A DNA stretch of 64,000 nt from Bryoerythrophyllum caledonicum. Taxonomy: Eukaryota; Streptophyta; Bryopsida; Pottiales; Pottiaceae. The notes under the pieces are model-generated. The model did not search any database. It saw only the letters and a program-made list of their open reading frames with translations, and was not told the origin of the DNA. The stretch lies in contig OZ020523.1 of the NCBI GenBank assembly GCA_963971425.1, positions 11,900,867 through 11,964,866 on the forward strand. Direction: 5' to 3'. The position numbers were made by a program, and so were the translations under genes. Positions 24,834 through 43,310 of the stretch are shown here, piece after piece. Every line of letters starts with the position of its first letter. Position 1 is the first letter of the stretch.

Positions 24834-25792
24834 ATGAAGACGGTCCCCATGGCCAAGAAAAAACGAACTGATAGAGATGGGCGCGGCCGGAGAGACGAAG
24901 AGCCGGCAGTTGCGCTCCCACCTTTGATCCGCGTTCTTCCGAACATCCGAGAAGACCTAGACGAGTACAACCTACTGAAGGCGAGCCTGAAGACAATGGG
25001 TGCGAGGGTTTGCTTGAAGTTCCCTGGGGCATCCGGAAGGAGGTCTATATCCGGGAGCTGGTAGGGACGCCGGGCGAGATGTACAAGGGGTTAATGAGAG
25101 CCCATCCGGAACTCTGGGGAGTCCCGGAATGGACTCAGACGTACGACTTCCGGGCCGGCCATACGAAGGTGGTTTAGGGTCGGCGGGACGAGTTCCTGAC
25201 GGACGACTTTGGAGGACCGGCGGACCTGAAGAATGGCTACAACCTGCAGGACCTTCGGCACCTCGACGCCCAGCTCGTGCTAGGATTTTTAAACCTTATC
25301 TTCCATCCGGAAAAGCCGAAGCGGGTGGTGGCGAAGTGGGCCTACTCTTTTCTCGGAGCACTTCGGGAGAAGATAGTCGTGGACTGGGATACGCTCATGA
25401 CCGAGCTGATCAACCGCCTCGTAGCCAATCTCCAGAAGGTGAAGAAGTCGGCAACACCTCTGGCCTCATATGTGGTGCACCTCTACTGTCACCACCAGCA
25501 GCTAGCTCCGGCGGAGGTCCGGAAGTACGACGAAGTCCTCAATTTCCAGAAATACGGAGGTGATGAGTCGGAGGAAGAAGAGTCCGACGGGAAGGAACCG
25601 GTACTGGAAACAACCCCCGCAGAAACTCCGAAAGGCAAAAGGGCTAAGAAGAGACCTCGAAGAAAGGAGCCCGAGCCAGAGAGTCCGAGCATTCGCAGCT
25701 CATTTGCGTCGTCCGGAGAAGACGAGTCCGGATACTCGGAGGAAACCAGCCGGAAGAAGAGGAAAGTCGACCAGGAGGACTCCAAGGGTTAG
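24834..25792 (+). pseudogene. Gag-like protein relic, N-terminal part
   Basis: A basic N-terminus (AKKKRTDRDGRGRRDEEP) is followed, after a frameshift near 25000, by a continuous frame with helical, gag-like content: RELVGTPGEMYKGLMRAHP, HLDAQLVLGFLNLIFHP, VAKWAYSFLGALREKIVVDW, PLASYVVHLYCHHQQLAPAE. A TAG at 25175-25177 interrupts it. The end is acidic then basic (EEEESD, KRAKKRPRRK). Other features of this element continue in the same frame. The resemblance to plant retrotransposon Gag or coiled-coil 'putative plant transposon' proteins is from memory of their general character. Confidence 0.45.
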
Positions 25793-26263
25793 CTCCGGCA
25801 GATGGACGAGCTCTCGTGCGAGATCGGTTGAAGAGTTAGCCTCCTTAAGGAGACCAACTACATCATCACCACTAGCGTAGAGCAAATCTTCCGGAGCCTA
25901 GACGTCGACAGACTGGAGGACGCCATCAACAGGGTGAAGGAACTTTGGAACCGGGAGGCGGACATGAAGGCGCTGCACACCCAAATCTCTTCCATGTACA
26001 AGGCCAACACGGAGATGGAGAAGAAAGTGAAGCACTACCTCGCAGAAGCAGCTCTGGCGGTGACGGCCAGGAAATTGGCAGAGGCAAAGGCCAATGCCTC
26101 CGGAGCTGCTCTGACGGAGGTCCGGAAGGCTCTGGAGGTGCTAATTGATGTGGTCAACCGGAGTCAACTCTTCACCAAATTGGTGGAAAAGAAGGAGAAG
26201 GTCACCAAGGCCAACATCATCCGGTTTCTCTTAGATCAAGCGGAGAAGATGGGACGGACCTAG
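25793..26263 (+). pseudogene. Coiled-coil continuation of the gag-like frame
   Basis: This is the same frame as the preceding relic, separated from it by TAG (25790-25792) and TGA (25829-25831). It encodes a charged helical stretch (NRVKELWNREADMKALHTQ, NTEMEKKVKHYLAEAAL, KANIIRFLLDQAEKMG) predicted by eye to form a coiled coil. The longest open piece is 25934-26263. It stops at TAG 26261-26263. Read through the stops, it joins the Gag-like N-terminus to the proline-rich tail. Confidence 0.45.
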
Positions 26264-26899
26264 GGGCTAATGAAGCTGCTGGTCGACAACATCACCGAGG
26301 AGCTTCCGGAAGGGCCAACAGCACCTGGATCAGAAGGCACCACGACCCCAACACGAACTACGGCCCCTCCCGAACCACCGACCAAGACCACTCCAGCTCC
26401 GGGGACCTCAGCGAATCCGGAGTCTCTCGACACTCCATCACCTTCGACACCGACTGAGGGTATCTTACCTTCCTATCCGAGTACGAGTGAGATTCTGAAG
26501 AAGCTTCCGGATCTGCTGTCGCCACCCAACATGTGGCTGCCACATCCTCCGGCGGAAGGCGACCTCTCGGCTCCACCAAAGTCCGTGTCCAAGAGATTGG
26601 CGCCTCGACCAAGGAGTCCGTTCCGAAGCTACATGGACTTGGTCCAGGAGACCAGGTCAGCTTCTGTAACGGAACCACCAGCACCGCCTGTTCCGGAAGT
26701 TTTGCCGGAACAGCCCCCTCCTCCTCCGGACTCCAGGACTCCGGTGCTTGGTGTCTCTCCAGCGACCGGACCCTCGATCCGGAAGACCAACCTTTTGCCT
26801 GCAACATCGAAGAAGGCGAAGGGCAAGCAGTGCGCTCCGATGGAGATCTCCCCCTCCCACAGGAATGGAAGAAATCGGGGCCCAGGTGCTCCGATGTAG
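26264..26899 (+). pseudogene. Proline/threonine-rich tail of the gag-like frame
   Basis: The open piece 26270-26899 (209 codons) begins MKLLVDNITEELPEGP and is then low-complexity, rich in Pro, Ser and Thr (TTPTRTTAPPEPPTKTTP, EQPPPPPDSRTP), with a basic end. It is in frame with the two upstream pieces. Disordered tails of this kind are common in retroelement Gag-like proteins. No enzymatic motif is present. Stop at 26897-26899. Confidence 0.4.
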
Positions 26900-27331: not shown

Positions 27332-27339
27332 GTTCTTCC
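27332..27339 (+). repeat. hAT target-site duplication, left copy (GTTCTTCC)
   Basis: An exact 8-bp match to 40778-40785. Eight base pairs is the duplication length made by hAT transposases. Confidence 0.93.
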
Positions 27340-27450
27340 CAGGGTTGTCTATTGTGTCGTGACGGGGACAATTTCCGTCACAATGTCACGATGTCACGAC
27401 ACAATGACGGCATGACATTGTGACGGATCGTGACTTTACTGTGACGGGGC
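27340..27450 (+). repeat. Left terminal inverted repeat and subterminal GTGAC/GTCAC motifs
   Basis: After the 13-bp terminal repeat come clustered GTCAC/GTGAC words in both orientations (CCGTCACAATGTCACGATG, GACATTGTGACGGATCGTGAC). The right end (about 40685-40777) has the same words. Such clusters are the usual kind of transposase-binding region. Confidence 0.75.
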
Positions 27451-27594
27451 CATTTTGATGGCAGAAAACACAATTTTCACATTTACCTCTAGAGAGACGT
27501 TGGATTCAGAAAGGAATCTTCATGCCACATGTGCAGACATGTCATCAACTGCGATAAATTCATGTCGCAGTAATTTTCAGCTTGGGTCGAAGGA

Positions 27595-27835
27595 GTGTCC
27601 GCGCCAATCCGCGCCTCAGTCCATCATCGAAGGCTGTCCGCGGGCAGTCCGCGGCCCTTCCGCGTTCAGTCCGCTACTAGTCCGCGCTCAGTCCGCGGCC
27701 AGTCCGAACCACTGTCGCTTGTAGTCCGCGGGCAGCCCGCGGCAGTCCGTGGCAGTCCGCGGGCTGTCTCGAGCTGTCCGGGGCTGTCCGCGGCTACGTC
27801 CGCTGCTAGTCCGCGCCCCAACCGCGCCTGCTCCA
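27595..27835 (+). repeat. Left TCCGCG repeat array
   Basis: Irregular units of about 10-20 bp are built on (A/C)GTCCGCG(G/C), for example GTCCGCGGGCAGTCCGCGGC. The array sits upstream of a TATA box and the transposase frame. Its orientation equals that of the right-end array and is opposite to the 31480-31760 array. Confidence 0.9.
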
Positions 27836-27847
27836 TTTGAATTACAG

Positions 27848-27855
27848 TATAAAAT
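27848..27855 (+). promoter_or_regulatory. TATA box of the transposase gene
   Basis: TATAAAAT lies just after the left repeat array and 146 bp before the transposase ATG at 28001. Confidence 0.5.
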
Positions 27856-28000
27856 AGTGCCGTTCCAAGGCGACGGTGCTTAATCCTGCATAGTGGCTTT
27901 CAAGACCTTGGATTCTTTGTACAAGAATGCATTGCTCGAAATCCCATTGCTGAGGAGGGAATTGCTGACACGTAGTTGGCTTTGAGTTCAGTGCGACTCC

Positions 28001-31000
28001 ATGCCGCGTCGGAATTCTGTATGGGATCTATGGTACGAAGACATGGGCAACGTTCTTTCAAGAGCAGCACGACAAGTGAAGTGTCGGTTTTGTTCTCACT
28101 CTATGGTTTATAGAGCCGATAGGATGTTGTCACATATGGGGTACCGTCATCCTAGTAATCTAGGTCGTGACGTCCAATTGTGTAGGATGGTGCCTCCACA
28201 TGTGCGTTTGTTGTTTCAAAGTTGTGATGGGATTGTTCCTAATCGTCCTGATGCTGCCAACGATGTACCATGTTCCCAACAACGTGTTGATGACGAGAAT
28301 GGGATTGGAGTGGAACACTTATTGACACAATCCATGGTGGACGACCTGGAGCAGATTCAGAACTCCCAAACAAGTCGTGGCGTGGAATCCGTACACTTAG
28401 ATAGGGAACCTCGAGAGCTACGTCAAGCGACTTTGCCTGAGGGCTTCAACATTTCCAAAAGGCATCTCTTGGACAAGGCTTGGTCTAGTGTTTTCTATGA
28501 AGCAAACATTCCATTCAATATCATTAGGCACCTTGCTTTTGTAAAAGCGGTTCAGGAAACTGCACGCGCACGAATGGCCGCCTACCATCCACCGACCTAC
28601 AATGCCGTACGTACGAAGTTGTTGACAAACAAAAAAGTTGATGTACAAACGGCTGTCAATGTAGCCATGGGTAATGCTATATCAAAGTATGGCATTACAA
28701 TATGTAGTGATGGCTGGGACAACGTTCAGAACCGAACTTTGCTAAATATTGTTCAGTCATGCACAAAAGGGGATGTTTTCATAGGCACCATCGATACATC
28801 GGGAAATTATAAAGACCACTTTTATGTTGCTTCTCAAATCCGACCGTTTCTGCAAATGGTTGGACATGCAAATGTTGTCCAAGTATGCACGGACAATGCT
28901 CCAGCCATGGCGGCCGCATGTCGTGACATCATGCAAGAAATTCCACATCTCTATGTTCAAGGATGCGCTGCCCATTGCTTGGATCTTTTACTGGAAGATT
29001 GGGGCAAAGAAGCGTGGGTACAAAGGATTGTTAAGAAGGCAAGGGTTGTTTGTTTATTCATCAAGAACCACCATGCCCCACAAGCAATCTTTCGAAGGTT
29101 ATCACCCGATCTTTCTATTCGTTTGCCCAATGAGACACGGTTTGCAACAAACTTTCTCACGATACAACGCCTCCTCCAAGTTCGCCAGGCATTGGAGTGA
29201 ATGGTGGTTGATGAAGACTGGCATGCTTTTCTAGCGGTATTGCGGACTCAAAATACAAGGGCACATGCAAAAGGCCTTTATGCACGACACGTTATACGCT
29301 CGGATGGATTTTGGGATGTTTGTGTGAATTTTGAGTACATGGTGTTGCCGGTGGTACGTGCTCTTCGTGTATTTGACGGCAATGCTCCCGCTATGTGTCA
29401 TGCATGGAAGGTCATGCATGAATTGGGGATCCATGTTCAAGGATTCCGCAATGCCCCCTTCTGCTTGGAACAAGATTTGGCAACAAGGGCATTAGATGCC
29501 TTTAATGCAAGATGGAGGCTCATGATTACTGACCTTCATTGGGTGGGGGCTATGTTGAATCCTTCTTTGCGTGGATGGGTCCCGTTGCACGAGCACGAGC
29601 TTGCGAGACCAATCTTGAATGGTGTTCTTCGGAACCTAGTTACGAGGGAGGATGATCTAGGTTTGGTCCTCAATCAGTACCAAGATTTCATTGAGAACAG
29701 AGGGACATTTGCAGATTCCATGCAACCAAATGTCTTGAATGTACCGCCCCATGAATGGTGGGATGCCATGGGAGGCGGGGCAAAGCAATTGGCAGATTAT
29801 AGCAAGACGCATCCTTGCTCAAGTATGTTCTGTTTCGGCATGCGAACGCAATTGGAGCATGTACTCTTATGTTCACAACAAATCCCGCAATCGCCTACAA
29901 CAGAGTCGGGCGGAGGACCTCGTTTACATTTACACCAATTCTAGGCTCCTTAGGCATCGAAGAGGAACGAGGGTTGCTCAATGGCTTGAGTTGAATGGCG
30001 TGCATTCCGATGATGAAAGCAATGGGGACGATTCTGATGATGCCAATGATGATGGCCATCATGTCGATCATGATGGACTTGGTGATTTTGACATGGACGC
30101 TAGTACTTTTTATTCGGACAATGAAGATTCAGATGGTGACGGTGGTGAGGGTCACCGTGATGGGGATAACAATTCGAATTATGACGGTCTTCACTTTGAT
30201 GGTGATCGTAGAACTGGAGATATTGGTGTTTTTGAGTTTATCGAAGGTGAAGAACCACAACATGTTCAACTGCCATCTAACCTTCGCGGGGATGATGATG
30301 GGCCGTCATTTGGACAACTTTGTGCAGGACAAGGACTCTGGCGTGAACAGGAAGGGGGCGTTCACCACCAAGCCGTCCACGCAAACGTTGACTTGCCATC
30401 CCAGCCTGAAAGTGATTCGTTATCATTTGGTGGGGAAAGGCAACATATCCCGGATCACAGGGATGAGGAGGCCACTACACCGGCTTGTGATACGTCTCTT
30501 GTGCCATCAAGGGTGGTTTGCAAGGGCAATTCCAATCTGCCATGTACTATGACTTCAAATGTTCAAGGGTTATCCACGCCTATTGAAGAGGGTGAAGTGA
30601 ATGTGTCAACCACAGAGGTTGATGTACCTCCCCAAGTTGGAATACAAAATTGGCGGATCACCCGTAGTCATGTAGTTGCGGGGAGATTCGGTGGAGCGAC
30701 CACACGGGGGGTCGGTGCTTCATTGGTAGCACTTCAAAACAATCGTCCAAACATTGGACAAGGACGAAATCGTCGGCAATCCATTTGGTCGAATACTGTT
30801 CATAGTCCAACCGTTCGAAGGCAACCTCTCACTCCAGCAAGTGAGCGAGGTCATTCTATACGCAAGGGTGGAAGGGTTCTTGTAACAAGTGGAAGAGGGA
30901 TAGTTTCGTCCTTAGATGTAGACATCAATGCAATTGTTGATGTAGGTACAACACTTCCACATTGCGGGGAGGCTTCTACAAGCACCACAAGTGCTAGTGG

Positions 31001-31286
31001 TCGACGAAGGACTACACGAGGGAGGAAGAGACGTCGAAGGAATCAAGGAATACTAATGCCATTTGTCGGTGAAGCTTACGACCCATCTGACGGAAGACCC
31101 AATATGGATGACAATGGAATACGTGACATCGGCGGCTCTCGTCCAACAAGGAGGTTGGTTATTGGTCGAGACGATAACTTGCAATTGAGAAGTGCTACTC
31201 CACAGTCCGACGATGAAGAGAGTACAGATGAATCTGATGTGGATCCACGGTGCATAGAAGAGAATGACCCAACAGTTCGAGTGTGA
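28001..31286 (+). pseudogene. hAT transposase (BED zinc finger, DUF659, C-terminal dimerisation), broken
   Basis: The frame starts at ATG 28001. Residues 28-51 form a BED-type finger (CRFC ... HMGYRH, C-x2-C and two His). The DUF659-like catalytic core follows, with acidic residues in CSDGW (about residue 235) and CTDNA (about 295), then GCAAHCLDLLLEDWG. A TGA at 29198-29200 (probably from CGA, Arg) interrupts it. The same frame continues to about 29797, where an indel moves coding to another frame. That frame gives the dimerisation signature ARRILAQVCSVSACERNWSMYS, whose CERNW carries the third catalytic acid. The final roughly 430 codons (to 31286) are an acidic, disordered tail unusual for hAT. 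With one stop and one frameshift it cannot make an active enzyme as assembled. Confidence 0.88.
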
Positions 31287-31479
31287 TCTTGAATGTATGA
31301 CTATTAAATTTCCCATTATGCATACAAGAGGTCTATTGATATTCTTTGTGTATGTTATCCATATGTTTCATAATACTCTTACTTTTTAATGTCATTATTA
31401 TTTCAAGACATTCATCTCGCACAATAAGATATCCAGTAAATTGAATGCGAAAAACATTTAGGAGTTAGCGGACATGGAG
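31287..31479 (+). other. 3' flank of the transposase gene
   Basis: Short AT-rich stretch between the transposase stop and the middle array, with AATAAG-like words that could serve polyadenylation. Confidence 0.3.
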
Positions 31480-31760
31480 TGAAGTGCCCGCAGATATTGC
31501 ATCGGACTGGCGCGGACAGGTCGCGGAATGCCGCGGACTGCCCGCGAAATGGTGGTAGATTGGACGCGGACTCCCCGTGGACAGGGAGCGGGCTGCCCGC
31601 GGACAGGGCGCGGACGAGGCGCGAACAGAGAGCGGACTGGCCGCGGACGAGGCGTGGACAGGACGCGGACGAGACGCGGACGAGACGCGGACGAGACGTG
31701 GACAGGGCACGGACAGGTGCGACCCTACGGCCGCGGACATGGGCGGACAAGGGCGGACAG
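31480..31760 (+). repeat. Middle CGCGGA repeat array
   Basis: Units of about 9-12 bp on the theme GACGCGGAC and GACGAGACGCGGACGAGACG, tightly repeated near 31665-31700. Inverted relative to the left and right arrays. It ends immediately upstream of a TATA box. Confidence 0.9.
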
Positions 31761-31765
31761 GGGGG

Positions 31766-31772
31766 TATAAAA
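31766..31772 (+). promoter_or_regulatory. TATA box of the RING gene
   Basis: TATAAAA within GGGGGTATAAAAGGGGAGGG, just downstream of the repeat array and about 390 bp before the ATG at 32165. It is a textbook core-promoter position and implies a 5' leader of about 360 nt if no intron intervenes. Confidence 0.65.
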
Positions 31773-32164
31773 GGGGAGGGAGGAAATGTTTTTTGCACAC
31801 CTTCCCGCGAATCCTGGACGCCCTGACGCACTTGCCTCCACGTTGACGGCGGTGTGCGGGGTTTTCAGCGTGGGATAGTGGTCCTTTTGAGGACGGAGAT
31901 TACCCGAGAGGGGAATTTTTAGTCCTCAAAAGCATCAGCACAGGTACAGAAGCTGTTGAAGTTGTCAGAGATTTGAAGAAGCCGTGTATTTGATATTTTT
32001 TAACAATCTCTCATCAGCACTATTTTGAAGTGCTTGCATGGGATTAATTGTAGCACTATTTTGAAGTGCAATTAGTTATAGGCGGCATAATCATATTAGA
32101 ATAGTTAGCTAGTATTAGAATAGCAATTAGAAGTACTTCGTAGTGGTTTAGGGTTGTTTAAAGC

Positions 32165-34312
32165 ATGGCAACCATGCATAGCGGTGGTGGAGGTGGTGGA
32201 GGTGGTGGAGACGGTGGAGGGAGGAGGAATTTAAATCCGCCAGATTGGGGCACGGGTCCCTCAAAAAGAGCCAAGAAGGCTGCAGATTTGGAGCTAGAAA
32301 TTTACAGAGACTTTAATCTCTTGGCGTACTTCGGATGGGAAAATCTACTGGAGCCATGGACATGTCAACAGGCGTATGAGCACATTGGTTTTGCTCACCT
32401 CGACCGATGGTATACTCCGGAAGTTCACGAGGATCATTGCCAAACGAAGCAATTGACGTATGCCAACATTACTTCCGTAGAGATAAAATGGAGGTTTTTG
32501 GAGATTTTACGAGCCATCTCCCACGAAACACGTTGGCCAAAGAATACCATTCCTAGAAGAATAGCTGCGATGGTATACGCAGAGTGTGTGTTGCACAAGC
32601 GGGTTGATTGGTCGACGCTTAATCAAGCTTTGGACCTCCCTGGCAATGTTGGGAAGCATTTAGGCGACGCACTTACATCGAGGTTGCCTATACTATCAAT
32701 TCCTAGAAATCCCGTGCCGGAGTGGTTTAGCAAAAAGAGTAGTTTGGTTGATCCACCAGGCCAACAGTTGCCAGCGGATCGAGCGATACCAAAGCCCCGC
32801 AATCGAAGGAATAATATTGTGCCGGCTGGTGAAGCGCCTCGTGATGGTGGATCCCAACAAGGCCCCCAGAATGTGGCCCTCGTTCAACATCCTCCGGAAG
32901 TTCCCCTCGTCCAACAAGATGTGGATCAACAAATCGTTGACGAGATATGGAATCAATGTAGTCTGAGATTGGAGGATCTTACCATCGGACATGTGACGGC
33001 AGAACAACACGATCAGTTACGCCGGGAGTATGAAGCGTACAAGGCTGAAGCAGAAGAACGTGCGAAAGAAGCAGCTCTAAAAACGGAATGTTTGGAAGCG
33101 GAGAAGAACGAGATGGTTGCTAGCATGGCCCAATTGCGGATTGAATTAGAAGAAGCCCGCAATTGTAATACGAAATATGAAGCAAGTATTTCTGCAATGC
33201 AAAGCGACATACTCCAACTCCATACCGATAGGGAAACCATGATGTTGGGCACGGTGTTGGCGGCATCACGTGCGAGACAATGTGAGGCTGAGATAGCAGA
33301 GATTGCTGAAGAGTGGACATCTAACCACAAGTTGAGAGCCTTCTTACTTACATCTTGGCCGACGTTGGAAAAAATGTATCCAAGTCGATGGGATGACATG
33401 GACCCAAAAGTGAATACTGCCAATGGTAGCATCGACTGGGCGCACATTCAAGAAGAAGATCACCGTTTTGATATCCATGAGAAGGGTAGAGATGGGCAAC
33501 ATAAAATATGGGCAAATGCGGGGACAATGACCACAGAGGGTCAAACTTGTCCCATTTGTCAATATCCATGGGGCCCGGAAGGGTATTATATGCTCGGAGC
33601 ATGTGGACATTCATTCCATCTACAATGTCTTATTGAGCATATGATCCAAAGTCGCTCATGCATCATCTGTCATTCGCCGTATCATGCCCGTCTATATTTG
33701 CAATTTGGCTTGAGAGATTTCATGTCGACACATTGGGAGTATCGTCAAGAATACTTTCCAAATTTTGACGTAGGCACTGATGAAGGGAAACCTGTGAAAT
33801 GGAATTGGAGATTCAACGTATCACATGCAGAGCTGGTTGCAGCAAACGAGGCATATGGCACCTTAAAAGATCCAACAAACATATTGCGGGCGGCGGAGGG
33901 GTTGTATCCTAACCAACCACCAGATTACGGTCTGAAGATGTTTTTCTACAATGTAATGGAGTGGCATTTTGATCGTGAGACACAGACAATATTACATGGC
34001 CTTGGGCCTGCACCACATTACAACTCATCTGGAGTGATGGCAATCACTGGTGCGGAATTCAGGCGTATGTATCGCGCGGTGGGAGAAGTCTCAGAACTAC
34101 GCAATGCAACGGTGGACTTGGTTGCGGAAAGAACGTATCATCAACCTCGGCTACATAGTTTGGCCCTTGACTTTATCTTGAACGATGTTTCCCCAGAAGC
34201 CAAGGCTATCCTCGATGGTCTACGGAATAGACAGAGACCGGGAACAGAGGTGCTGCGAGCTTCTTATAGACCTCAAACGCGCCGTAATGATGGTGCCTCA
34301 TCGTCGCGCTAA
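32165..34312 (+). CDS. Intact 715-residue RING-finger coiled-coil protein carried by the hAT
   Basis: The uninterrupted frame runs from ATG 32165 to TAA 34312. Residues 5-20 are a Gly-rich run. Residues 40-180 form an unrecognised helical domain (YFGWENLLEPWTCQQAYEHI, WSTLNQALDLPGNVGKHLGD). Residues 185-265 are proline-rich. Residues about 284-375 are a charged coiled coil. Residues 462-505 are a RING-type zinc finger (CPICQYPWGPEGYYMLGACG, HSFHLQC, CIICHSPY) with all eight ligands visible. The remaining 210 residues are unassigned. RING domains usually recruit E2 enzymes for ubiquitin transfer, so an E3 ligase role is likely but not shown. The neighbouring transposase is broken but this frame is not. 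Its own array and TATA box suggest separate transcription. Confidence 0.85.
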   Translation: MATMHSGGGGGGGGGDGGGRRNLNPPDWGTGPSKRAKKAADLELEIYRDFNLLAYFGWENLLEPWTCQQAYEHIGFAHLDRWYTPEVHEDHCQTKQLTYANITSVEIKWRFLEILRAISHETRWPKNTIPRRIAAMVYAECVLHKRVDWSTLNQALDLPGNVGKHLGDALTSRLPILSIPRNPVPEWFSKKSSLVDPPGQQLPADRAIPKPRNRRNNIVPAGEAPRDGGSQQGPQNVALVQHPPEVPLVQQDVDQQIVDEIWNQCSLRLEDLTIGHVTAEQHDQLRREYEAYKAEAEERAKEAALKTECLEAEKNEMVASMAQLRIELEEARNCNTKYEASISAMQSDILQLHTDRETMMLGTVLAASRARQCEAEIAEIAEEWTSNHKLRAFLLTSWPTLEKMYPSRWDDMDPKVNTANGSIDWAHIQEEDHRFDIHEKGRDGQHKIWANAGTMTTEGQTCPICQYPWGPEGYYMLGACGHSFHLQCLIEHMIQSRSCIICHSPYHARLYLQFGLRDFMSTHWEYRQEYFPNFDVGTDEGKPVKWNWRFNVSHAELVAANEAYGTLKDPTNILRAAEGLYPNQPPDYGLKMFFYNVMEWHFDRETQTILHGLGPAPHYNSSGVMAITGAEFRRMYRAVGEVSELRNATVDLVAERTYHQPRLHSLALDFILNDVSPEAKAILDGLRNRQRPGTEVLRASYRPQTRRNDGASSSR

Positions 34313-35769
34313 GGGTATAGAAGATAAATAGTGCGTACTAATTCAGCGTATTTTTTCTTTAGGCAGATATCAAATAGTTTAGGTTCCTAGAATCGCAAAA
34401 TCTATTAAATATTTAGTACAAAAGAGAGATGTAATGTACATGTGTACAAATTCCTTTTTGATTTTGAGAAAACAAATTTAGAAAACTTCCATCTACCGGA
34501 AGCACATTTTCCAATTCTCCCTACATATTCTTCTAGAAACTTTCTAATTTCTTCTAGAGTAGACCTTTGTAAAAAAAGAATATTGATGTGCAAGTTGCAA
34601 ATCAAAATCAGATTTTCTTGTATTATTTGTCCGCTTATTCTTTTAAAAAAATCCGAGAAAGTAAGACTTGAAATGGATGTAAAATAATTCCAATAAAGAT
34701 AGTATTTGTTGTTTAGGGCAGACAATTCTTAGAATATTTCATCGTTTTTTCGTCATCTTTGTTCGGCTTGGATTCCTCTCCCTATAACTTAGGTTTAACG
34801 TTTAACATTCAAGTAAGACTTTTCTATGTAACATCGTTATCATCATTGCCAAGGTGTTGTAACGAATTAGATGAGGTAAAGAAAAGGCAACGCATATCAC
34901 AGAAATTGGTAGAAGCACTGGAGGACTGGCAAATTACAAATTCAGATATACCATTTTTAGGAAATGAAACCCTACTATTAATTCCCTAGTTTACAATGTG
35001 GGCCATTTTCTCTAATTCCATGACTTCACATGAAATGCTCTTCTTTTGTATGGACAATAAATGATTTCCGATGTTGGAAATGACACACCTGAAAATGTAT
35101 CGTTGCAAATGAAGAACTTCATTGAAATAGAATGAGAAGGAATTTAAAAAATTTGAAATGGGAACCTTGTTCCTTTGGTTCCCTCTCATTCTATTTTAAT
35201 TGAATGCTTTAGTCATAAATCTCCTCCTCCTTCTCATTCTAATTTAGTTTAGATAGTCATCTGCGATTAACCCTCTTCCATTCCCTCCCCTTCTAATTTT
35301 ATTTAGATATTATTCATTATTGTCCCTTGGTCCTTTGTTCCATGTTCATTCTCCTTCCAATTTAATTGGGATCTATTACCCCTAACGGCAAGATTCCTTA
35401 CATGGCCCGTCCTGCCATCTTTGACAAGGGCGAGTCACTCATGACCAAAATAATACCCCAACCCGCTCAAAGACTAGTTCAATCAACCACTCCCATAAGG
35501 AGACATTAAAATCATATTTAAAGTGAAATTTTGGATTCATAATCGTAAGGTCTTGAAATATACTACTGTATGAATCCAAAACCTAAACCGCGGCACCCTA
35601 AACCCAAGTAAACAATTATATTGATATCCATTCTTTGTGTTTTCCATATGTTTTACAAAATACTTACTTTTAAGACTTATTTTATACACTTTCTGTATGT
35701 TTACCATATGTTTTCTTTTTTATTTCTAGACATTGTAACACACGATAAGGTACCTAGTACAGTCAGACC
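34313..35769 (+). other. AT-rich interior of the hAT, no gene recognised
   Basis: Open frames of up to about 106 codons occur on both strands (around 34405-34725) but overlap and lack motifs. Loose repeats of CATTCTA(A/T)TTTA occur near 35200-35360. Confidence 0.4.
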
Positions 35770-36234
35770 TTGATAAGGGTTACCTCGAAAAGTGTTAACA
35801 CTCTTAATTCCCTGAAGTGGAGAAAGCCAAATTTCAAAAGGTTTACGACAATGCACGAAAATAATGTAGTTCTATTTGATGACCTTGTGGTGGCTACTGC
35901 AAAGAGATTTTGCACATTACTTCCAGGAGGTGCTAACGAGAAAGAGCTTCTATTTTCTCATGGATGGGTGCGAATTTCAAGAAGAGATATGATATCAAGG
36001 GCTATACCCGTCATGGTGAAAACGCGCTCAGGGGACATTTATGTAGAGGTTTTAAAAAAAAAGAATACATCAAAACACTTGGTATCTCAGTATAGGCACT
36101 TTCTAAACCCGGAAAATATATGTATACAATGCCATGCTAAAAAAAACATGGACGACAACAGAAAAAAATATAACAATTTAAGTTATATTTTCAGAGGAGG
36201 ACTAGCAGTTGGCGCTTGCTTTGCAACGCATTAG
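35770..36234 (+). CDS. Hypothetical ORF inside the hAT element
   Basis: The frame of about 154 codons is open from 35770. Its first ATG is at 35851, giving about 127 residues. It has protein-like content (HENNVVLFDDLVVATAKRF, LLPGGANEKELLFSHGWVRI, KTRSGDIYVEVLKKKN). I recognise no family. It could be an exon of the kinase gene downstream or an independent relic. The AT-rich surroundings and lack of a visible promoter make it uncertain. Confidence 0.3.
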   Translation: MIRVTSKSVNTLNSLKWRKPNFKRFTTMHENNVVLFDDLVVATAKRFCTLLPGGANEKELLFSHGWVRISRRDMISRAIPVMVKTRSGDIYVEVLKKKNTSKHLVSQYRHFLNPENICIQCHAKKNMDDNRKKYNNLSYIFRGGLAVGACFATH

Positions 36235-36457
36235 TTCAACCATTTTAGTGTAGTTTTAAAATCACAAAATAAAAAAAAGAAAGGTAACAACAATCTACAT
36301 AAAATATAAATATATCTTTGAAACCCATGCATGAATTTTTATAATATATATATAAAAGAATACAGGATGAAGAACACGTCAAGTGGATGAACACGTAGAT
36401 GAAAATGGAGCGTCAAATGAATGAACGCTACAAAACAATTCCACGATTTCTTTGCAT

Positions 36458-36570
36458 GTGCCCTTTGGAGGAATCCATTGAATGTGCCCTTTGGAGGAAT
36501 CCATTGAATGTGCCCTTTGAAGGAATCATTTGAATGTACCTTTTAGAGGAATCCTTTGAATGTGTCCTTT
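36458..36570 (+). repeat. 26-bp tandem repeat
   Basis: About four to five degenerate units of GTGCCCTTTGGAGGAATCCA plus TTGAAT. Confidence 0.85.
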
Positions 36571-36832
36571 CATTAGGATTTGGATTTGATATAATCCAAA
36601 ATTTAACGTTTTTATCCACATACATTTGTTTAACTCAAGATTGCTCATGACCCATCGGTTAGGACGGGGTTCCACTAGTAATAGAATAGAATAGTAAACA
36701 ATTAATTTAGTATTAGATTTTTTGCATTTTAACATGGCATTTAAAAAAATGTTATGAATGTCAAATGTGTAATCAAGAGTTTCAATCTTATTTTGGATAA
36801 GCACAAATTGCAACACACAAATGCAAATTTTA

Positions 36833-36950
36833 CACACCCACAAACTCAACTTGCAATTACAATCTCAAATTCACACACCCACAAACTCAACTTGCAATTA
36901 CAATCTCAAATTCACACACCCACAAACTCAATTTGCAATTACAGTCTCAA
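36833..36950 (+). repeat. 39-bp tandem repeat, three copies
   Basis: The unit starts CACACCCACAAACTCAACTT and continues GCAATTACAATCTCAAATT. The third copy is slightly diverged. A looser copy of the flanking phrase CAACACACAAATGCA recurs near 37168. Confidence 0.85.
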
Positions 36951-37965
36951 AACTTGCAATCTCACCTCAATACTTGTAATTTCAATCTCCACAACTCGAA
37001 TATGTAATTTTGCAACTCCAACTTTGTATGCCAACCTCGAAGCTCACAACTCCAACTTCACAACTTTTTCACTCGAAGTTTACAACTCATAACTTACAAT
37101 TCAATCTTTTAGAGCTTAACTCAAAAAAAAAATTGAACGTCCAATTTCTAATCAAAAGCACAGATTGCAACACACAAATGCATATTTGTCACACCCAAAA
37201 ACTCAAGCTAATGCTTTGCAGCGCAATAGTCCGGGGATTCTCATGTAGTTTTTATATGACAAACTATAATTTAAAAAAGGTAACATGATTTACTGCGTGG
37301 TTGGCTGCACCGTACCCATAGTTTAATCCAAGGTTGACAACGCGATTGATCGGTCCGTGGTTCACTGCGCGGATTATGATTTTAGTAGTATGATGGTATG
37401 TGCCCAGAAAGATAAAGTACTTTTGTTGGTTAATATTTTTTCTAGACAACAAGTGCCTAATGGAGGTTCAAGATTGAGGGTGACACGAATAGATGAATAA
37501 TGAATCAAAGTTTCGTAATTACATCCATTATTTCTATAAATGTTATGTATTTACCGTTTAAATTCTGCTAAGTGGATTTTTTTTATAAGTTTTATAAATC
37601 ATCGACATCACAACTTATAAGTGTTATGAGTTACCGGTGCCTAATAGGAATTTACACTACGGTGAGGAACTCCACCGGCCGGTAAGAAGTCTCAGCCAAA
37701 ATTATTAGTATAAATCTTTAGGACATTGTTTGTTAATGTGGACAAGAATTGACCCAACTAATAGAAATGAAATGATATTCGCACATTAGACGAGTGTGTA
37801 AAAGAAATTTAAAAAGATGTCAATATGAAAATAAAACTAAAGACTAGATATATCTCGACAAAGATTGATGTCCAAATATAAGGTCAAACTAGGACAAAAA
37901 TATTCTAAATAAATTATGTGTCATAAATATAAATTGTTTTTTAAATTTCCTTCCCGCTTTTTGCC

Positions 37966-38307
37966 ATGTCATCTTGTCTTTTCCTTCTAATTTCTTCAAT
38001 GCACCAACCCTTAGTAGATGAAAAATCATTTTCCAGAATAGTTTTTGATTTCTTTGAACAAAGGATGGATATCTCCCATCTACTTAATGTTGTAAGGTCC
38101 AACATGCATTTTTGTCCGCAATCACCTTTCAAAATCTATACCATTTATATCAAGTGTAAAAATGTAGAAAAAGTTGTTGGAAAAAATGTTTCTACTTGTC
38201 TAGTTTATGTGGTAAAAAGCTCACATGGTTTCAACATACAATGCAAGATTGAGAGCCACTTATTACACCGGGTTAACTCTACTTCTTGTATAGAAAACAT
38301 AATCTAG
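37966..38307 (+). CDS. Hypothetical 113-codon ORF inside the hAT element
   Basis: The ATG-started frame lies in AT-rich DNA just upstream of the assembly gap. It contains Cys/His and hydrophobic residues but no motif I recognise. It may be an exon of the following kinase gene or chance. Confidence 0.18.
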   Translation: MSSCLFLLISSMHQPLVDEKSFSRIVFDFFEQRMDISHLLNVVRSNMHFCPQSPFKIYTIYIKCKNVEKVVGKNVSTCLVYVVKSSHGFNIQCKIESHLLHRVNSTSCIENII

Positions 38308-38630
38308 CATAGAGTTTTTGGGCTACTATCAACTTTGAAAATCTAAGAAAGAGTAACAAGTAGTAAACTCCTCCTCTAAACACAAACCCCACAATCATGT
38401 CATTACAATTAAAGTACAATTGAAAGTCAATAGCAAAAAAAATTTGCACAGTATGCAGAACTCCATTCCACTAAAATGCACGTAACTCACTGAATGCTAA
38501 TCACACTAACTTTAAATTTGTACTACACAAACTAGAAAAAAATGCGCAACTTACCCAACAATTTTTTTAAAAGATAGACACTCGTGGAAGAAAAAGAATA
38601 AACTTGAACTTATGTAAAATTCAGCAAATT

Positions 38631-38830
38631 NNNNNNNNNNNNNNNNNNNNNNNNNNNNNNNNNNNNNNNNNNNNNNNNNNNNNNNNNNNNNNNNNNNNNN
38701 NNNNNNNNNNNNNNNNNNNNNNNNNNNNNNNNNNNNNNNNNNNNNNNNNNNNNNNNNNNNNNNNNNNNNNNNNNNNNNNNNNNNNNNNNNNNNNNNNNNN
38801 NNNNNNNNNNNNNNNNNNNNNNNNNNNNNN
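38631..38830. other. Assembly gap, 200 N
   Basis: Two hundred undetermined bases. They remove the 5' part of the kinase gene and leave the real length of the hAT element unknown. Confidence 0.99.
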
Positions 38831-39443
38831 AATCGACCTTGAGGCTCGTATGGAACTATGCGTGTATCGTAAAAATCGGGCCTATTTAGCATGGGCACTA
38901 CTGTGCATCATGGATGTGATACATTCCCAGCGCATTTTGCACAATGACTTGAGCCCCAACAATGTTATGCTTCATTTTCCGCAAGAGAAAAAAGATGTAG
39001 TGTACATCGGGGTGTGTGATTGGGGAATGGCATCATGGGACGGCGAAGACAAGATGTCAAACTACGGTCGACCCTCTAGTACAGAGCTCGGTGCTTTCCG
39101 AGCTAAGTATCGTCATGCTGCCCCCGAGCTATTCTATGTATATGGGAAGCCCGGAACACCAACGTCACCGAGGAGAATGGGAATAAAGCATAAGCACAAT
39201 CATAGATCTGAGGCGTATGCAGTGGGGTACTTGGCAAGGATGATCTACAACCGCGATTGCTCTTCAAGCTTGTTCCAAAAGAACAAAGATCCGAGTTCAT
39301 TGTCCAAGCGATTTGAGCAAGCCATGGACGAGTTGTTGAAACCCGATCCACTAGAGAGATCAACCGTCACGCATATAGTAGACTTGTTGAAAGGACCGCC
39401 CTACAACCTAGCTACACCATGGGATTTCTTCCGCAATGAGTAG
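38831..39443 (+). CDS. Protein kinase C-lobe (partial, 5' end in gap)
   Basis: The open frame runs out of the gap to TAG 39443. Visible kinase landmarks: a helix E-like segment (RAYLAWALLCIMDVIHSQ), a catalytic loop ILHNDLSPNNVML with Asp and the following Asn kept but HRD changed to HND and the usual Lys replaced by Ser, a DFG position reading DWG (CDWGMASWD), an APE motif (HAAPELFYVYG), a helix F-like SEAYAVGYLARMIYN, and a C-terminal end LLKPDPLERSTVTHIVDLL. The glycine loop and VAIK lysine would be in the gap. The altered motifs leave activity open: active divergent kinase or pseudokinase. It lies downstream of the RING gene, same strand, inside the hAT ends. Confidence 0.8.
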
Positions 39444-39738
39444 TATATAGTATATTGTGAGTTCATAGTCCTTAGATACTGTAGGGTATGTAGCATCTTC
39501 TCTATGTTGTGAAATGTTGTCTAATTTGTATTCGGTTATTTGCAAGAAGAGAATGCCTTTTTAGACTTCCCTGTAATTTTGAATGAAGAACAACTTTGTA
39601 CAAATTGTTTTGAATTGGTCTCCCAATCCGCCCTTTGTATCTTCAGAAATAAAAATGGAATAACGTAATTAAAAAATATCCTAACTACCATATCCGCGCT
39701 CCCCCACTCCCAATCCGCGTTGCATTGGCGCCCCCACA
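39444..39738 (+). other. 3' flank of the kinase gene
   Basis: AT-rich, non-coding, with possible polyadenylation words (AATAAAAATGG at about 39649), leading into the right repeat array. Confidence 0.35.
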
Positions 39739-39739
39739 C

Positions 39740-40500
39740 CTAGGCCGGTGCGAATCCGCGATCAGTCCGCGACAGTGACCGCTATCAGTCCGCAGAAGTG
39801 TCCGCAGCAGTGTCCGCGGCCAGTCCGCAGCAACGTCCGCAGCCAGTCCGCGGGTCTGCACTCAATCCGCGGGTCCCCATCCAGTCCGCGGGTCCACATC
39901 CAGTCCGGTACGTATCCGCGGTAGTGTCCGCGGCCCGTCCGCGATCAGTCCGCGGTAGCGTCCGCAGCCAGTCCGCGGGTCCACATCCAGTCCGCTACGT
40001 ATCCGCGGTAGTGTCCGCGGCCAGTCCGCGATCAGTCCGCGGCAACGTCCGCAGCAGCGTCCGCAGCCAGTCCGTGGGTCCCCATCCAGTCCGCTGCGTA
40101 TCCGCAGCTAGCCCGCGGGTCCACATCCAGTCCGCTACGTATCCGCGGCCTGTCCGCGATCAGTCCACGGCAGCGTCCGCAGCTAGTCTGCGGATTCCCA
40201 TCCAGTCCGCTGCGTATCCGCAGCCAGTCCGCGGGTCCACATCCAGTCCGCTACGTATCCGCGGCCAGTCCGCGGCAATGTCTGCAGCCAGTCCGCGATC
40301 AGTCCGCAGCAGCGTTTGCAGCCAGTCCGCGGGTACATATCCAGTCCGTTGCGTATCCGTAGGCAGTCCGCGGGTCTGCACTTAGTCCGCGGGTCCAAGT
40401 TCAGTCCACTGCGTATCCGCAGCCAATCCGCGGCAGTGTCCGCATGCAGTCCACGGCAGTGTCCGCATGCAGTCCACGGCATGTCCGCGTGCAGTCCGCT
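39740..40500 (+). repeat. Right TCCGCG repeat array
   Basis: About 760 bp of units built on CAGTCCGCGG, with a higher-order phrase GGGTCCACATCCAGTCCGCT followed by ACGTATCCGCGG that recurs irregularly (spacings about 40-100 bp). Same orientation as the left array, opposite to the middle array. Long open frames on both strands across it are repeat artefacts. Confidence 0.92.
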
Positions 40501-40684
40501 CCTAAACTGCTTACTCTGAAAAACCCCCCAACTTAATTGATTTTCACTCAAAGGTTAATACAACACAGCAAAGGGTAAAAGTGGTGAGAGACACGTAGGA
40601 TGTCAATGCCACATAGGACGGCCACGTCGACGCCGAGGTAACATATGTACCATACATAGCGTTAAAGTTCAGCTTTGACCCTAG

Positions 40685-40777
40685 GTTGACTCTATTGTGT
40701 CGTAACGAGAGGGTCCGTCACGACAGGTCACGTCATGACGGCACGTCACTGTCACAATGTCACGATAGACAACCCTG
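40685..40777 (-). repeat. Right terminal inverted repeat and subterminal motifs
   Basis: It ends ATAGACAACCCTG, the reverse complement of the left end. GTCAC/GTGAC-type words (CCGTCACGACAGGTCACGTC, CACTGTCACAATGTCACG) mirror those at the left end. Confidence 0.85.
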
Positions 40778-40785
40778 GTTCTTCC
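40778..40785 (+). repeat. hAT target-site duplication, right copy (GTTCTTCC)
   Basis: Identical to 27332-27339. Removing the hAT and one copy rejoins the middle element as ...GGGGTTCTTCCGGAATAG.... Confidence 0.93.
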
Positions 40786-41673: not shown

Positions 41674-42300
41674 CATGCCGACGTTGAAGGAGTTGTTTGA
41701 TGCGGTGGGCGACACTAGAGTATTTAATACTCTAGATTTGCGGTTTGGTTACCATCCGTTACCATTGATGATGGATGACCGGGTGAAGGCTACATTTTGA
41801 GGAGTTGATCAGGATGGGAGAGATCAACTCTATCATTTGAAGTTTCTCCTATTTGGCCTCAAGAACGCACCCGCTGAGTTTCAGAGGGTGATGGACCAGG
41901 TGTTGACCAGTTTACCGTTTGCCCGATGCTACATTGATGATGTTATCATATTTAGTAGGAGCCCACAGGAGCATGTGAGGCATCTTCAGGCGATGTTTGA
42001 GAGGTTATGGCAGTGGGGATTGCGCTTGCACCATAGCAAGTGCAAGTTCTTCCACGACCGTTTGCCATATTTGGGACATATGATTGTTCCAAGGGGTCTT
42101 CGCGTATAGTTGGCCAAGGTGAATGCGTTGTAGAAGATTCCTGCCCCATCCGAGTCCCAACATGTCACGGCTTCAAGCTTTTCTTGGCTTGGCAAATTAC
42201 TATCGCCTGTTTGTCAAGAACTTTAGCTTGATTGCTAAGCCATTGACTATTCTCACGGGAAAGGATCAACCATGGACTTGGGGACGGGAGCTGTAGCAGG
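41674..42300 (+). pseudogene. Reverse transcriptase, catalytic part
   Basis: It reads PMPTLKELFDAVGDTRVFNT, then LDLRFGYHPLPL, then after a TGA (41798-41800) GVDQDGRDQLYHLKFLLFGL, KNAPAEFQRVMDQVL and the polymerase active-site block RCYIDDVIIFS (YIDD, the Y-x-D-D motif). The thumb region follows (CKFFHDRLPYLGHMIVPRGL), then TAG at 42107-42109, a frameshift near 42155, LQAFLGLANYYRLFVKNF and TAG at 42294-42296. Copies RNA into DNA when intact; this copy is dead. Confidence 0.88.
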
Positions 42301-42800
42301 CATTTGCTACTTTGAAGCTAAAGCTCGGTTCAACGTCTATACTGCGGCATCTAGATGCTACACGATCCATTCAGTTGCACACAGATTGGAGTGTTGTGGG
42401 ATTGGAGATTGTGTTGATTCAGAAGGATGATGAAGGACGGGAGTACGTTGTGGCGTTTGCTTCTAGGAGCAACAACAACGCGGAGTCCAATTATTCGCCC
42501 TATGAGGAGGAGTCCTTGGCCGCGGTTTGGACCATAGCCCATTTTAGGCCCTATTTGTATGGATAACGTTTTACGTTGGTGACCGACCATCAGCCTTTGA
42601 AGTGACTCATGGAGTCTAACAAGCTTATTAGCAAGCTCGCGAGGTGGGCTTTGTTGCTTCAGGAGTATGACTTTGAGGTTATACATCGGGCAGGCATCAC
42701 GAACTTGAATGCGGATGGTCTATCTCGCAATCCAAGTCTTTTGGAGGAGGATTTGGCTGGTGCGAAGTGGCATGGGGATTGTAACAGGGAGTAAGTCCCG
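42301..42800 (+). pseudogene. RNase H region of the Ty3 polyprotein
   Basis: The segment encodes IQLHTDWSVVGLEIVLIQKD, FASRSNNNAESNYSPYEEES and LAAVWTIAHFRPYLYG, the Ty3 RNase H signature (D, E and Y-x-x-x-E-x-E spacing). TAA at 42564-42566 and TGA at 42603-42605 interrupt it. It then reads SKLARWALLLQEYDFEVIHR and AGITNLNADGLSRNPS, the connection domain with the N-x-x-A-D-x-L-S-R motif. Removes RNA from RNA-DNA hybrids in the intact element. Confidence 0.85.
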
Positions 42801-42827
42801 GGGTGGCATGCAACGGATTACCTCACC

Positions 42828-43310
42828 TTGATATCTGGCTTCACATCGACGTTGCTTGATTTGACAACAAATGAGGAACCAGATAGGGCCCAAGTTGTTA
42901 GCAATGTGTGGGAAGACGGTTCAGTCTTACACAAGCTACAACATGGGACACTTTTCCCAGCTCTTTCTGCTATGGGGCATCATAGAGTTGGGCACCGAAT
43001 AGCAAGGTTTTGTTGGGAGAACAACCTTCTATTTTGGATGTGGCTAAATGGAACTAAGCGCATAGTTCCAAGGTCAGATCAGAGGGCTTTGTTGGTACGA
43101 CAAGTACACAAAGACCTAGGACATTTTGGTGTGCAACGGACTCATTCGATGTTGCGCAGCCAATACTGGTGGACTGACATATATCAACAAGTTGCCACGT
43201 ATGTTTCTCGGTGTGAAGTATGTGATCGGGTTAAATCTAGCTTCAACACCTTATCATCCCAACTGCAGCCTTTGTCCATTATGAGGCTATGATACCGGTG
43301 GTCTTTGGAC
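42828..43310 (+). pseudogene. Integrase N-terminal zinc-binding domain, truncated
   Basis: The open frame includes LLVRQVHKDLGHFGVQRTHS, MLRSQYWWTDIYQQVATYVS and RCEVCDRVK, an HHCC zinc domain (H-x4-H ... C-x2-C) of retroviral-type integrases, then the start of the core YRWSLDF after a stop at about 43291. The catalytic D,D-35-E core is missing, so insertion activity is lost. Confidence 0.82.

Follow-up and report, generated by a model that had tools for sequence, protein, structure and literature searches.

Elements of the hAT superfamily, among them those of the Ac/Tam3 type, are usually seen as minimal transposons with one transposase and two ends, and other members of the group move with the transposase alone. 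Transposons of many kinds also frequently pick up host genes. The element analysed here, which we take to be a plant-type hAT, shares with the Ac/Tam3 type its short terminal inverted repeats and subterminal repeats, its DUF659 and hAT dimerisation domains and an 8-bp target-site duplication. It differs in its size, probably about 22 kb, in having three or four additional genes that are under selection and in repeat arrays that stand before each gene as well. We consider it very probable that it represents a hAT-superfamily transposon with a conserved accessory set, consisting of RING coiled-coil proteins and a protein kinase, that acts in trans on silencing or transposition.

Accessory genes have precedents elsewhere. 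According to the accessible part of one report, the fungal hAT7 carries TET/JBP and IS3EU carries an alpha-kinase gene, and these and other fungal DNA transposons resemble our element in having a recurrent accessory enzyme gene, a gene order kept in some families and, for IS3EU, a kinase (PMC12730594). As described there, hAT7 differs in being fungal, in its 7-bp duplications and in encoding a TET/JBP dioxygenase instead of RING proteins, while IS3EU belongs to another superfamily and encodes an alpha-kinase, whereas here a Pkinase-family kinase sits on a hAT element (PMC12730594). Plant transposons keep extra genes as well, vanB and vanC in the MULE/VANDAL elements and mudrB in MuDR; the portion of the source available to us describes VANC as anti-silencing (PMC6446971). 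These elements belong to another superfamily and encode other proteins, with no RING or kinase mentioned in that portion (PMC6446971); for the element here, anti-silencing is what we infer rather than observe. ToxhAT was considered as a further precedent and dropped, given the 2-bp TA duplication and probable misclassification indicated in the part of the literature at hand (PMC12506042). Among titles and abstract starts in the open-licence PMC literature, searched with our terms, none described a hAT element that carries genes for RING proteins and a kinase.

Ends, genes and probable length of the element

In the window, the whole 64,000-nucleotide stretch of Bryoerythrophyllum caledonicum DNA that was analysed, the element spans 27340-40777. 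The original prediction of matching ends and a perfect 8-bp duplication is borne out: the terminal inverted repeat CAGGGTTGTCTAT lies at 27340-27352 on the plus strand and, as an exact 13-bp copy, at 40765-40777 on the minus strand, and the duplication GTTCTTCC is identical at 27332-27339 and 40778-40785. The subterminal motif CACAATGTCAC is found on the plus strand at both 27379-27389 and 40753-40763, its letters checked. With up to two mismatches, CAGGGTTGTCTAT matches the whole window only at the two ends; at least two such matches arose in 44 of 100 shuffles, so that the count alone is not above chance. The ends are instead settled as genuine by their exactness, their inverted orientation, the duplication and the further copies, with 392 exact 13-mers in the genome against one for a control in which the pattern was read backwards. 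Exact in the window and departing from this by up to a few bases in some of the other copies, the repeats are short, as hAT ends are, for which the accessible part of one source gives a range of 5-27 bp (PMC12506042).

The transposase gene (28001-31286, plus strand) matches the Pfam models DUF659 (6e-36) and Dimer_Tnp_hAT (6.5e-07). Both domains pass the cut-off in family A and in family C; copies are referred below to two subfamilies, A and B, and to a diverged family C. Of the BED/DUF659 transposase first proposed, the DUF659 part stands; for a BED finger, Pfam had no hit up to an E-value of 1, though by eye the N-terminus is CxxC...H-rich. The gene is not intact. Its frame at 28001-29200 ends in an in-frame stop (29198-29200), resumes at 29201-29944 and shifts near 29.8 kb to the frame of 29739-31286; the window copy is non-autonomous. 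In other copies the matched region can be free of stops, with frames as long as 1101 codons, and stops are found in many transposase matches genome-wide.

The 715-codon RING gene was correctly foreseen. This gene, RING1 (32165-34312, plus strand), is unbroken and matches zf-RING_2 (Pfam, 1.4e-06), with a RING-H2 finger at residues 461-502 that has eight zinc ligands in C3H2C3 spacing. In the corresponding alignment (A1), one ligand is missing in P0004 and P0005, and the spacing is altered in P0003; a second alignment, A2, used 21 of 71 relatives. The zf-RING_2 model scores above cut-off in RING1-A and RING3-A, and RING models fall below it in RING1-B and RING-C. A low-confidence model (mean pLDDT 48.8) predicts a long helix at about residues 279-384. 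The RING genes are probable E3 ubiquitin ligase genes.

The kinase gene has the expected orientation, but the window holds only its 3' part, the last 203 codons (38832-39443, plus strand; Pkinase 1.1e-09, with HND and DWG motifs), downstream of a 200-N gap; the open frame has 657 codons in relatives. In the three kinases compared, one from each of A, B and C, PF00069 scores above cut-off and the residues AGK, HND, DWG and APE are invariant, giving a Pkinase domain with catalytic lysine, HxD and DxG. Searched against the PDB, the 203-residue part had weak matches to CK2-type kinases (best E 0.00068), and a full-length kinase had no match at E 0.001. A kinase tree included 19 of 69 relatives.

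A gap-free relative of 22.3 kb encodes the transposase, RING1, a RING2 fragment, RING3 and the 657-codon kinase frame. Between the left end and the N gap (38631-38830), a stretch of 11.36 kb that includes a collinear AT-rich spacer (34313-38630), the window copy is 97.7% identical to it. Homology then breaks exactly at the gap, where the relative has 8.87 kb that the window lacks. The 13.4-kb length is therefore probably an assembly under-estimate, the gap probably hiding about 8.9 kb with the RING2 fragment, RING3 and the 5' part of the kinase. The original prediction of a 13.4-kb element with two extra genes was right about accessory genes and probably too low in size and number, with about 22 kb and up to four such genes more likely (RING1, RING2 fragment, RING3 and kinase).

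Hexamer arrays stand before the genes and at the ends. Upstream of the transposase, 10 GCGGAC hexamers (minus strand, reading GTCCGC on the plus strand) occupy 27636-27814 with a period near 11 bp, and a TATAAAA, found by eye with its letters checked, lies downstream of them at 27848. Upstream of RING1, 14 GCGGAC hexamers (31468-31758, plus strand) are followed by a TATAAAA at 31766 (letters checked), and the right subterminal GTCCGC array (39765-40499, minus strand) has 36 hexamers. Arrays ahead of each gene and at the ends were seen in the copies read, a single one for each of A, B and C; the simulated controls for them were made for the window.

Recurrence of the gene set and purifying selection

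Both ends are visible at 11 of 18 loci examined. The 8-bp duplications are perfect and mutually different at nine of these, agree in 7 of 8 bases at one and are absent at one. Seven of the nine loci with perfect duplications hold both RING and kinase, so that the two genes recur between the same ends with different duplications, in support of the original reading. The distinct duplications imply past movement of the element. The suggestion that the accessory genes might have been added later inside the window copy did not hold up, since they turn up between these ends at other loci too.

Linkage to the transposase agrees with this. Among the matches listed, RING1 and/or the kinase lie downstream in the expected orientation at 43 of 48 transposase loci, with RING1 within 4.5 kb on the same strand at 29 and the kinase within 45 kb on the same strand at 31, against upstream controls, on either strand, of 0 and 4. 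Nineteen of these 48 loci are without a listed RING1, 17 without a listed kinase and five without both; a genome in which other copies lack both genes at every locus was thus not what we found. The kinase is missing within 45 kb from 26 of 64 RING1 matches, again among those listed. The first 100 of 392 end positions, which cover C1 and part of C2, form 18 end pairs. A listed RING1 or a listed kinase (the latter with 70% identity or more and over 500 bases) lies in nine of them and neither gene in the other nine, only one pair holds both, and six are shorter than 2 kb. The genome contains at least 64 RING1 and at least 150 kinase matches, lower bounds in that the searches scored the best 62 of 3242 for RING1, 150 of 1740 for the kinase and 48 of 2845 for the transposase. 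Linkage counts used 137 of 150 kinase rows (13 short or low-identity rows left out) and 48 of 51 transposase rows (the other three being second pieces of loci already listed), and those for RING1 are of matches, a few loci yielding two. No size-matched contigs were found in other samples for RING-kinase linkage. IMG/VR viral contigs scanned with the RING1 protein, the RING alignment and the kinase alignment contained no relatives and thus give no sign of a viral link.

The same kinds of gene are present in subfamily B and in one copy of family C, which has its own ends and its own duplication and whose gene set was read in one element, with its gene order seen at C9:606734-638599; the RING2 fragment is found in subfamily A. 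Between A and B, comparison of one or two copy pairs per gene gave dN/dS of 0.22 for the transposase, 0.26 for RING1, 0.28-0.30 for RING3 and 0.24 for the kinase, with the lowest values in the domains (RING region 0.11, kinase domain 0.09). These substitution ratios show purifying selection on the element genes between the two subfamilies. Within subfamilies, dN/dS is 0.6-1.15 (RING1, RING3 and kinase), and recent copies drift. Paralogue comparisons gave 0.19 for RING1-RING3, with dS saturated, and 0.32 for RING1-RING2. A Pack-type gene-capturing element, with unconstrained captured fragments, was considered and set aside on the 0.22-0.30 range between subfamilies. The dS of RING1 (1.29, near saturation) exceeds that of the transposase (0.67), from which the genes may not always have travelled together.

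Possible roles of the accessory set

That the RING and kinase genes are integral genes of the element under selection seems to us highly likely from the sequence data. Since selection appears to have kept these genes working during spread, the element proteins probably act on the host cell. The action first proposed, be it on the transposase, silencing or DNA repair, is something we infer; that the set counters host silencing is a reading we favour tentatively. The arrays would be putative binding sites for a DNA-binding protein that the element itself encodes. This protein, for which the transposase is the simplest candidate, would co-regulate the element genes and recognise the ends. The RING proteins, with predicted E3 ubiquitin ligase activity, and the kinase, which would phosphorylate RING substrates or the transposase, could remove or modify a host silencing or repair factor. 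Most likely acting in trans, the set would keep the element expressed or tune its transposition, a post-translational counterpart of transposon-encoded anti-silencing factors.

An alternative that we rate somewhat lower, and on balance unlikely, is that the set controls or helps transposition itself, its proteins serving complex assembly, excision-site repair or cell-cycle timing and not host silencing. The intact catalytic residues of the kinase are consistent with such a role, as are the shared arrays, which suggest joint expression with the transposase, and the helix that the low-confidence RING1 model predicts, which would suit complexes; that the transposase alone moves other hAT elements argues the other way. 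There is also a precedent in MuDR, whose mudrB is apparently required for integration according to the accessible part of that source (PMC6446971). The short derivatives may point to action in trans, compatible with both readings.

It is improbable that the RING and kinase genes are captured host passengers, useless to the element, as in gene-carrying MULEs. Such pick-up is frequent, and six of the 18 listed end pairs are too short for genes; however, every gene is under purifying selection between subfamilies, most strongly in the catalytic domains, the same gene kinds recur in both subfamilies as well as in the family-C copy, and an array stands ahead of each gene in the copies read. Still less credible is an addiction or host-interference pair of kinase and RING favouring cells or gametes that keep the element: the enzymes are retained together, and one derivative read has a long kinase frame without RING1, but neither gene shows signs of neutralising the other, the presence of several RING paralogues is unlike a pair and no phenotype is known. 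That a RING-kinase locus landed by chance inside a single hAT copy, which the long AT-rich spacer between RING1 and the gap might recall, is refuted by the many loci, different duplications and conserved order.

Returning to the anti-silencing reading, it is tempting to suppose that this hAT lineage has given rise to multi-gene regulatory elements, whose ubiquitin-ligase and kinase module, with promoters carrying transposase-binding arrays, might reprogram host silencing or repair through proteins, not DNA, and might have been kept through the divergence of three families. By keeping selected signalling enzymes, the transposon seems to invest in protein-level host manipulation. Transposon escape from silencing thereby becomes a testable question, with the binding partners of the RING proteins and kinase as a way to host targets. 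Given the number of matches in this genome, an annotation that treats such RING and kinase genes as expanded host gene families could be mistaken.

The arrays differ in composition between copies. GCGGAC outnumbers GCGGAT by 110 to 36 in the A copy, and GCGGAT outnumbers GCGGAC by 88 to 30 in the B copy; for family C, the motifs are that copy's commonest hexamers, chosen post hoc. The hexamer type is a preference and no strict family mark.

The RING and kinase genes recur between the same ends

Our analysis shows that the RING-finger and protein-kinase genes are integral, selected and co-organised genes of the hAT element in the window. The original prediction of matching ends and a perfect 8-bp duplication was correct: exact 13-bp inverted ends lie at 27340 and 40777, with GTTCTTCC flanking the element on both sides. 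Its gene content was also recovered, in that the element encodes a transposase (Pfam DUF659, 6e-36; hAT dimerisation, 6.5e-07), an unbroken RING gene of 715 codons (RING1; zf-RING_2, 1.4e-06) and a kinase gene of which the 3' part is seen (Pkinase, 1.1e-09), but in this copy a single in-frame stop and a single change of frame interrupt the transposase. Elsewhere in the genome, some transposase matches have frames free of internal stops.

Searches of the genome from which the window comes (437 Mb in 894 contigs) returned 392 exact copies of the 13-mer ends (183 forward, 209 reverse), compared with one for the pattern read backwards. The genome holds at least 150 kinase matches and at least 64 RING1 matches, of which 49 reach 84% identity or higher, two have 73-78% and 13 have 56-57%; we named the two RING1 identity groups subfamilies A and B, B comprising the 13 matches. 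Among the 48 transposase loci listed, 29 are followed on the same strand by RING1 within 4.5 kb and 31 by the kinase within 45 kb, against 0 and 4, respectively, upstream on either strand. Far from both genes being absent from every other copy, one or both lie downstream at 43 of these loci and neither at five. Likewise, of the 64 RING1 matches listed, 38 are followed by a same-strand kinase within 45 kb, versus two preceded by one on either strand, and a kinase accompanies 12 of the 13 B matches within 45 kb and nine within 13 kb.

On contig C1 and part of C2, considering kinases of at least 70% identity and more than 500 bases, an exact right end lies 0.75-2.5 kb downstream of 17 of 24 kinases, and an exact left end lies upstream of eight of 12 RING1 matches. 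The same stretch contains 18 neighbouring end pairs no more than 45 kb apart. Half of these enclose at least one RING1 or kinase match from the lists (both kinds in one pair), and half enclose neither among the matches listed (six shorter than 2 kb, three of 8.9-27.5 kb); as the figures cover only listed gene matches, the contents of end pairs may be under-counted. The association of transposase, RING and kinase is nonetheless incomplete.

We inspected the ends at 18 loci, namely the window, five 40-kb regions, ten pairs of short end stretches, a 7.3-kb derivative and an element of a diverged third family, C, lying inside a fetched 40-kb region. Both ends were seen at 11 loci, nine of which have perfect, mutually different duplications (GTTCTTCC, GTCATGGT, GTTACAAC, AGGAGATT, TGGAAAGG, ATAATGAG, AATGCAAA, AAACCTGT and TATTCAAC). 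The first seven, GTTCTTCC to AATGCAAA, mark loci with both RING1 and kinase matches inside, the kinase being partial in the window and in a copy on contig C4; the recurrence of both genes between the same ends is therefore found at several loci. Among the other two-ended loci, the duplication matches at seven of eight bases for a B element nested in the C element, and a B element beside a second inverted end has no matching duplication (one of the 11); there is hardly any spacer between two head-to-head element ends at this last locus (L041, left end near C7:5242371-5242394). A single end fell within the fetched stretch at the remaining seven loci, with one to three mismatches in three of them.

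Anatomy of gap-free and gapped copies

The predicted length of 13.4 kb agrees with the ends in the window but not with a gap-free A copy of 22,306 bp (C7:15024258-15046563). This copy carries, in order, a broken transposase, RING1 with one stop, a RING2 fragment of 214 codons, a 744-codon RING3 frame and a 657-codon kinase frame. Its identity to the window element is 97.7% for the 11.36 kb as far as the N gap (38631-38830); the match resumes past the gap, at 88% in the right end, which is rich in repeats. What the window element lacks, 8.87 kb, coincides exactly with the 200 Ns. The three other gapped A copies that were read, namely A_C1, A_C2 and the 7.3-kb derivative, likewise break at a 200-N gap. 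A real deletion is the alternative, but because the breaks fall at such gaps in all of these copies, a placeholder gap is the likeliest cause of the shorter length.

We read RING3 in two copies of subfamily A, and its site in A_C2 coincides with the gap. All three B regions read contain the transposase, RING1, RING3 in opposite orientation and the kinase. A RING tree, with good support for five of its 11 inner branches, clusters the A and B RING3s (100/99) and, more weakly, the A and B RING1s (90/100); therefore, the split between RING1 and RING3 is probably older than that between A and B.

Beside the window element, to its right, are a reverse transcriptase piece (41801-42106; RVT_1, 8.7e-21) and an integrase zinc-binding piece (42795-43286), and to its left (25178-26899) are long frames, gag-like by eye, without a Pfam match above cut-off. 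A retrotransposon may have been the landing site of the element. Further left, a C-5 cytosine DNA methylase fragment (22857-23189; PF00145, 1.6e-06) lies amid frames that look retrotransposon-like by eye and is possibly part of a methylase-carrying element.

Selection on the accessory genes and a third family

Comparison of A with B, on one or two copy pairs per gene, gave dN/dS values of 0.22 for the transposase (644 codons), 0.26 for RING1 (about 700 codons), 0.28-0.30 for RING3 (513-551 codons) and 0.24-0.25 for the kinase (620 codons). Values were lowest inside the domains, at 0.11 for the RING region and 0.09 for the kinase domain, and higher outside them (0.24-0.32 in RING1; 0.35 and 0.46 in N-terminal parts of the kinase). 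Recent copies within a subfamily have dN/dS of 0.6-1.15 at dS of 0.015-0.039 (RING1, RING3 and kinase). Retention along the lineage together with drift after insertion is the pattern that a mobile element's own genes should show. The dS between A and B is 0.67 for the transposase and 1.29, near saturation, for RING1, and such unequal values may reflect exchange between lineages or uneven rates.

At G000:C9:606734-638599, in the same genome, a B element is nested inside the family-C element, placing two related families at one site. The C element, flanked by the duplication TATTCAAC, has ends CAGGGTTGTCATA and comprises 12.6 kb of sequence besides the nested B element. Its gene set, known from this one element, comprises a transposase 42% identical to that of A, a RING gene (about 25-29% identity), a RING fragment (about 30-32%) and a kinase (34%), in an order and orientation unlike those of A and B. 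DUF659, hAT dimerisation and Pkinase score above the Pfam cut-off and the RING models just below it, and the C transposase has at least 85 matches in the genome. Separately, kinase matches at 39-47% identity, which are not near A or B and whose open frames reach up to 598 codons, perhaps represent further element families.

Repeat arrays, putative functions and relatives

The hexamers GCGGAC/GTCCGC are concentrated in the element, which holds 64 of the 74 in the window against a Markov-1 expectation of 3.4 on average and 10 at most (200 simulations, window only). Sixty of these form three arrays, one at the right end and one each upstream of the transposase and of RING1. The 22.3-kb A copy has GCGGAC arrays ahead of each of its five genes and throughout its right end; in a B copy GCGGAT is the commoner hexamer at corresponding kinds of position. 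The preference is not strict, with 110 GCGGAC and 36 GCGGAT in the A copy (including two GCGGAT clusters) and 88 GCGGAT and 30 GCGGAC in the B copy (including three GCGGAC clusters). In the C copy, CCGCCC, ACGTCC and similar motifs, picked as its commonest hexamers, cluster upstream of its genes and at both ends, the clusters being smaller on the left. Arrays that are found at every gene and at the ends of a given copy, yet differ from family to family, suggest a shared binding protein, which would most simply be the transposase.

The RING proteins are putative E3 ligases, and the kinase is predicted to be active, as its AGK, HND, DWG and APE motifs do not vary among three kinases, one from each of A, B and C. 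Open frames of at least 650 codons occur in 22 of 137 kinase matches examined. The accessory genes would act in trans, most likely to counter silencing or tune transposition. Their presence in cis does not seem to be required, as suggested by the end pairs shorter than 2 kb (six of 18, known from end positions alone) and by the 7.3-kb derivative (L049, C1:12095172-12102517), in which the transposase is broken, the kinase frame is open over 657 codons and RING1 is absent.

Accessory genes in DNA transposons have precedents: PMC12730594 describes TET/JBP enzymes in fungal hAT7 and other superfamilies and an alpha-kinase gene in IS3EU, and PMC6446971 describes mudrB and VANC in MULEs. Among the papers listed from the open PMC literature, none, judged by title and abstract start, concerns a hAT element carrying RING and kinase genes. 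Other samples contain six RING relatives and, in two overlapping searches, 71 and 69 kinase relatives. Because two of these kinases (P0079 and P0080, with good support) and two RINGs (P0001 and P0002, with weaker support) branch closer to A than B does, the family probably extends beyond the window's genome.
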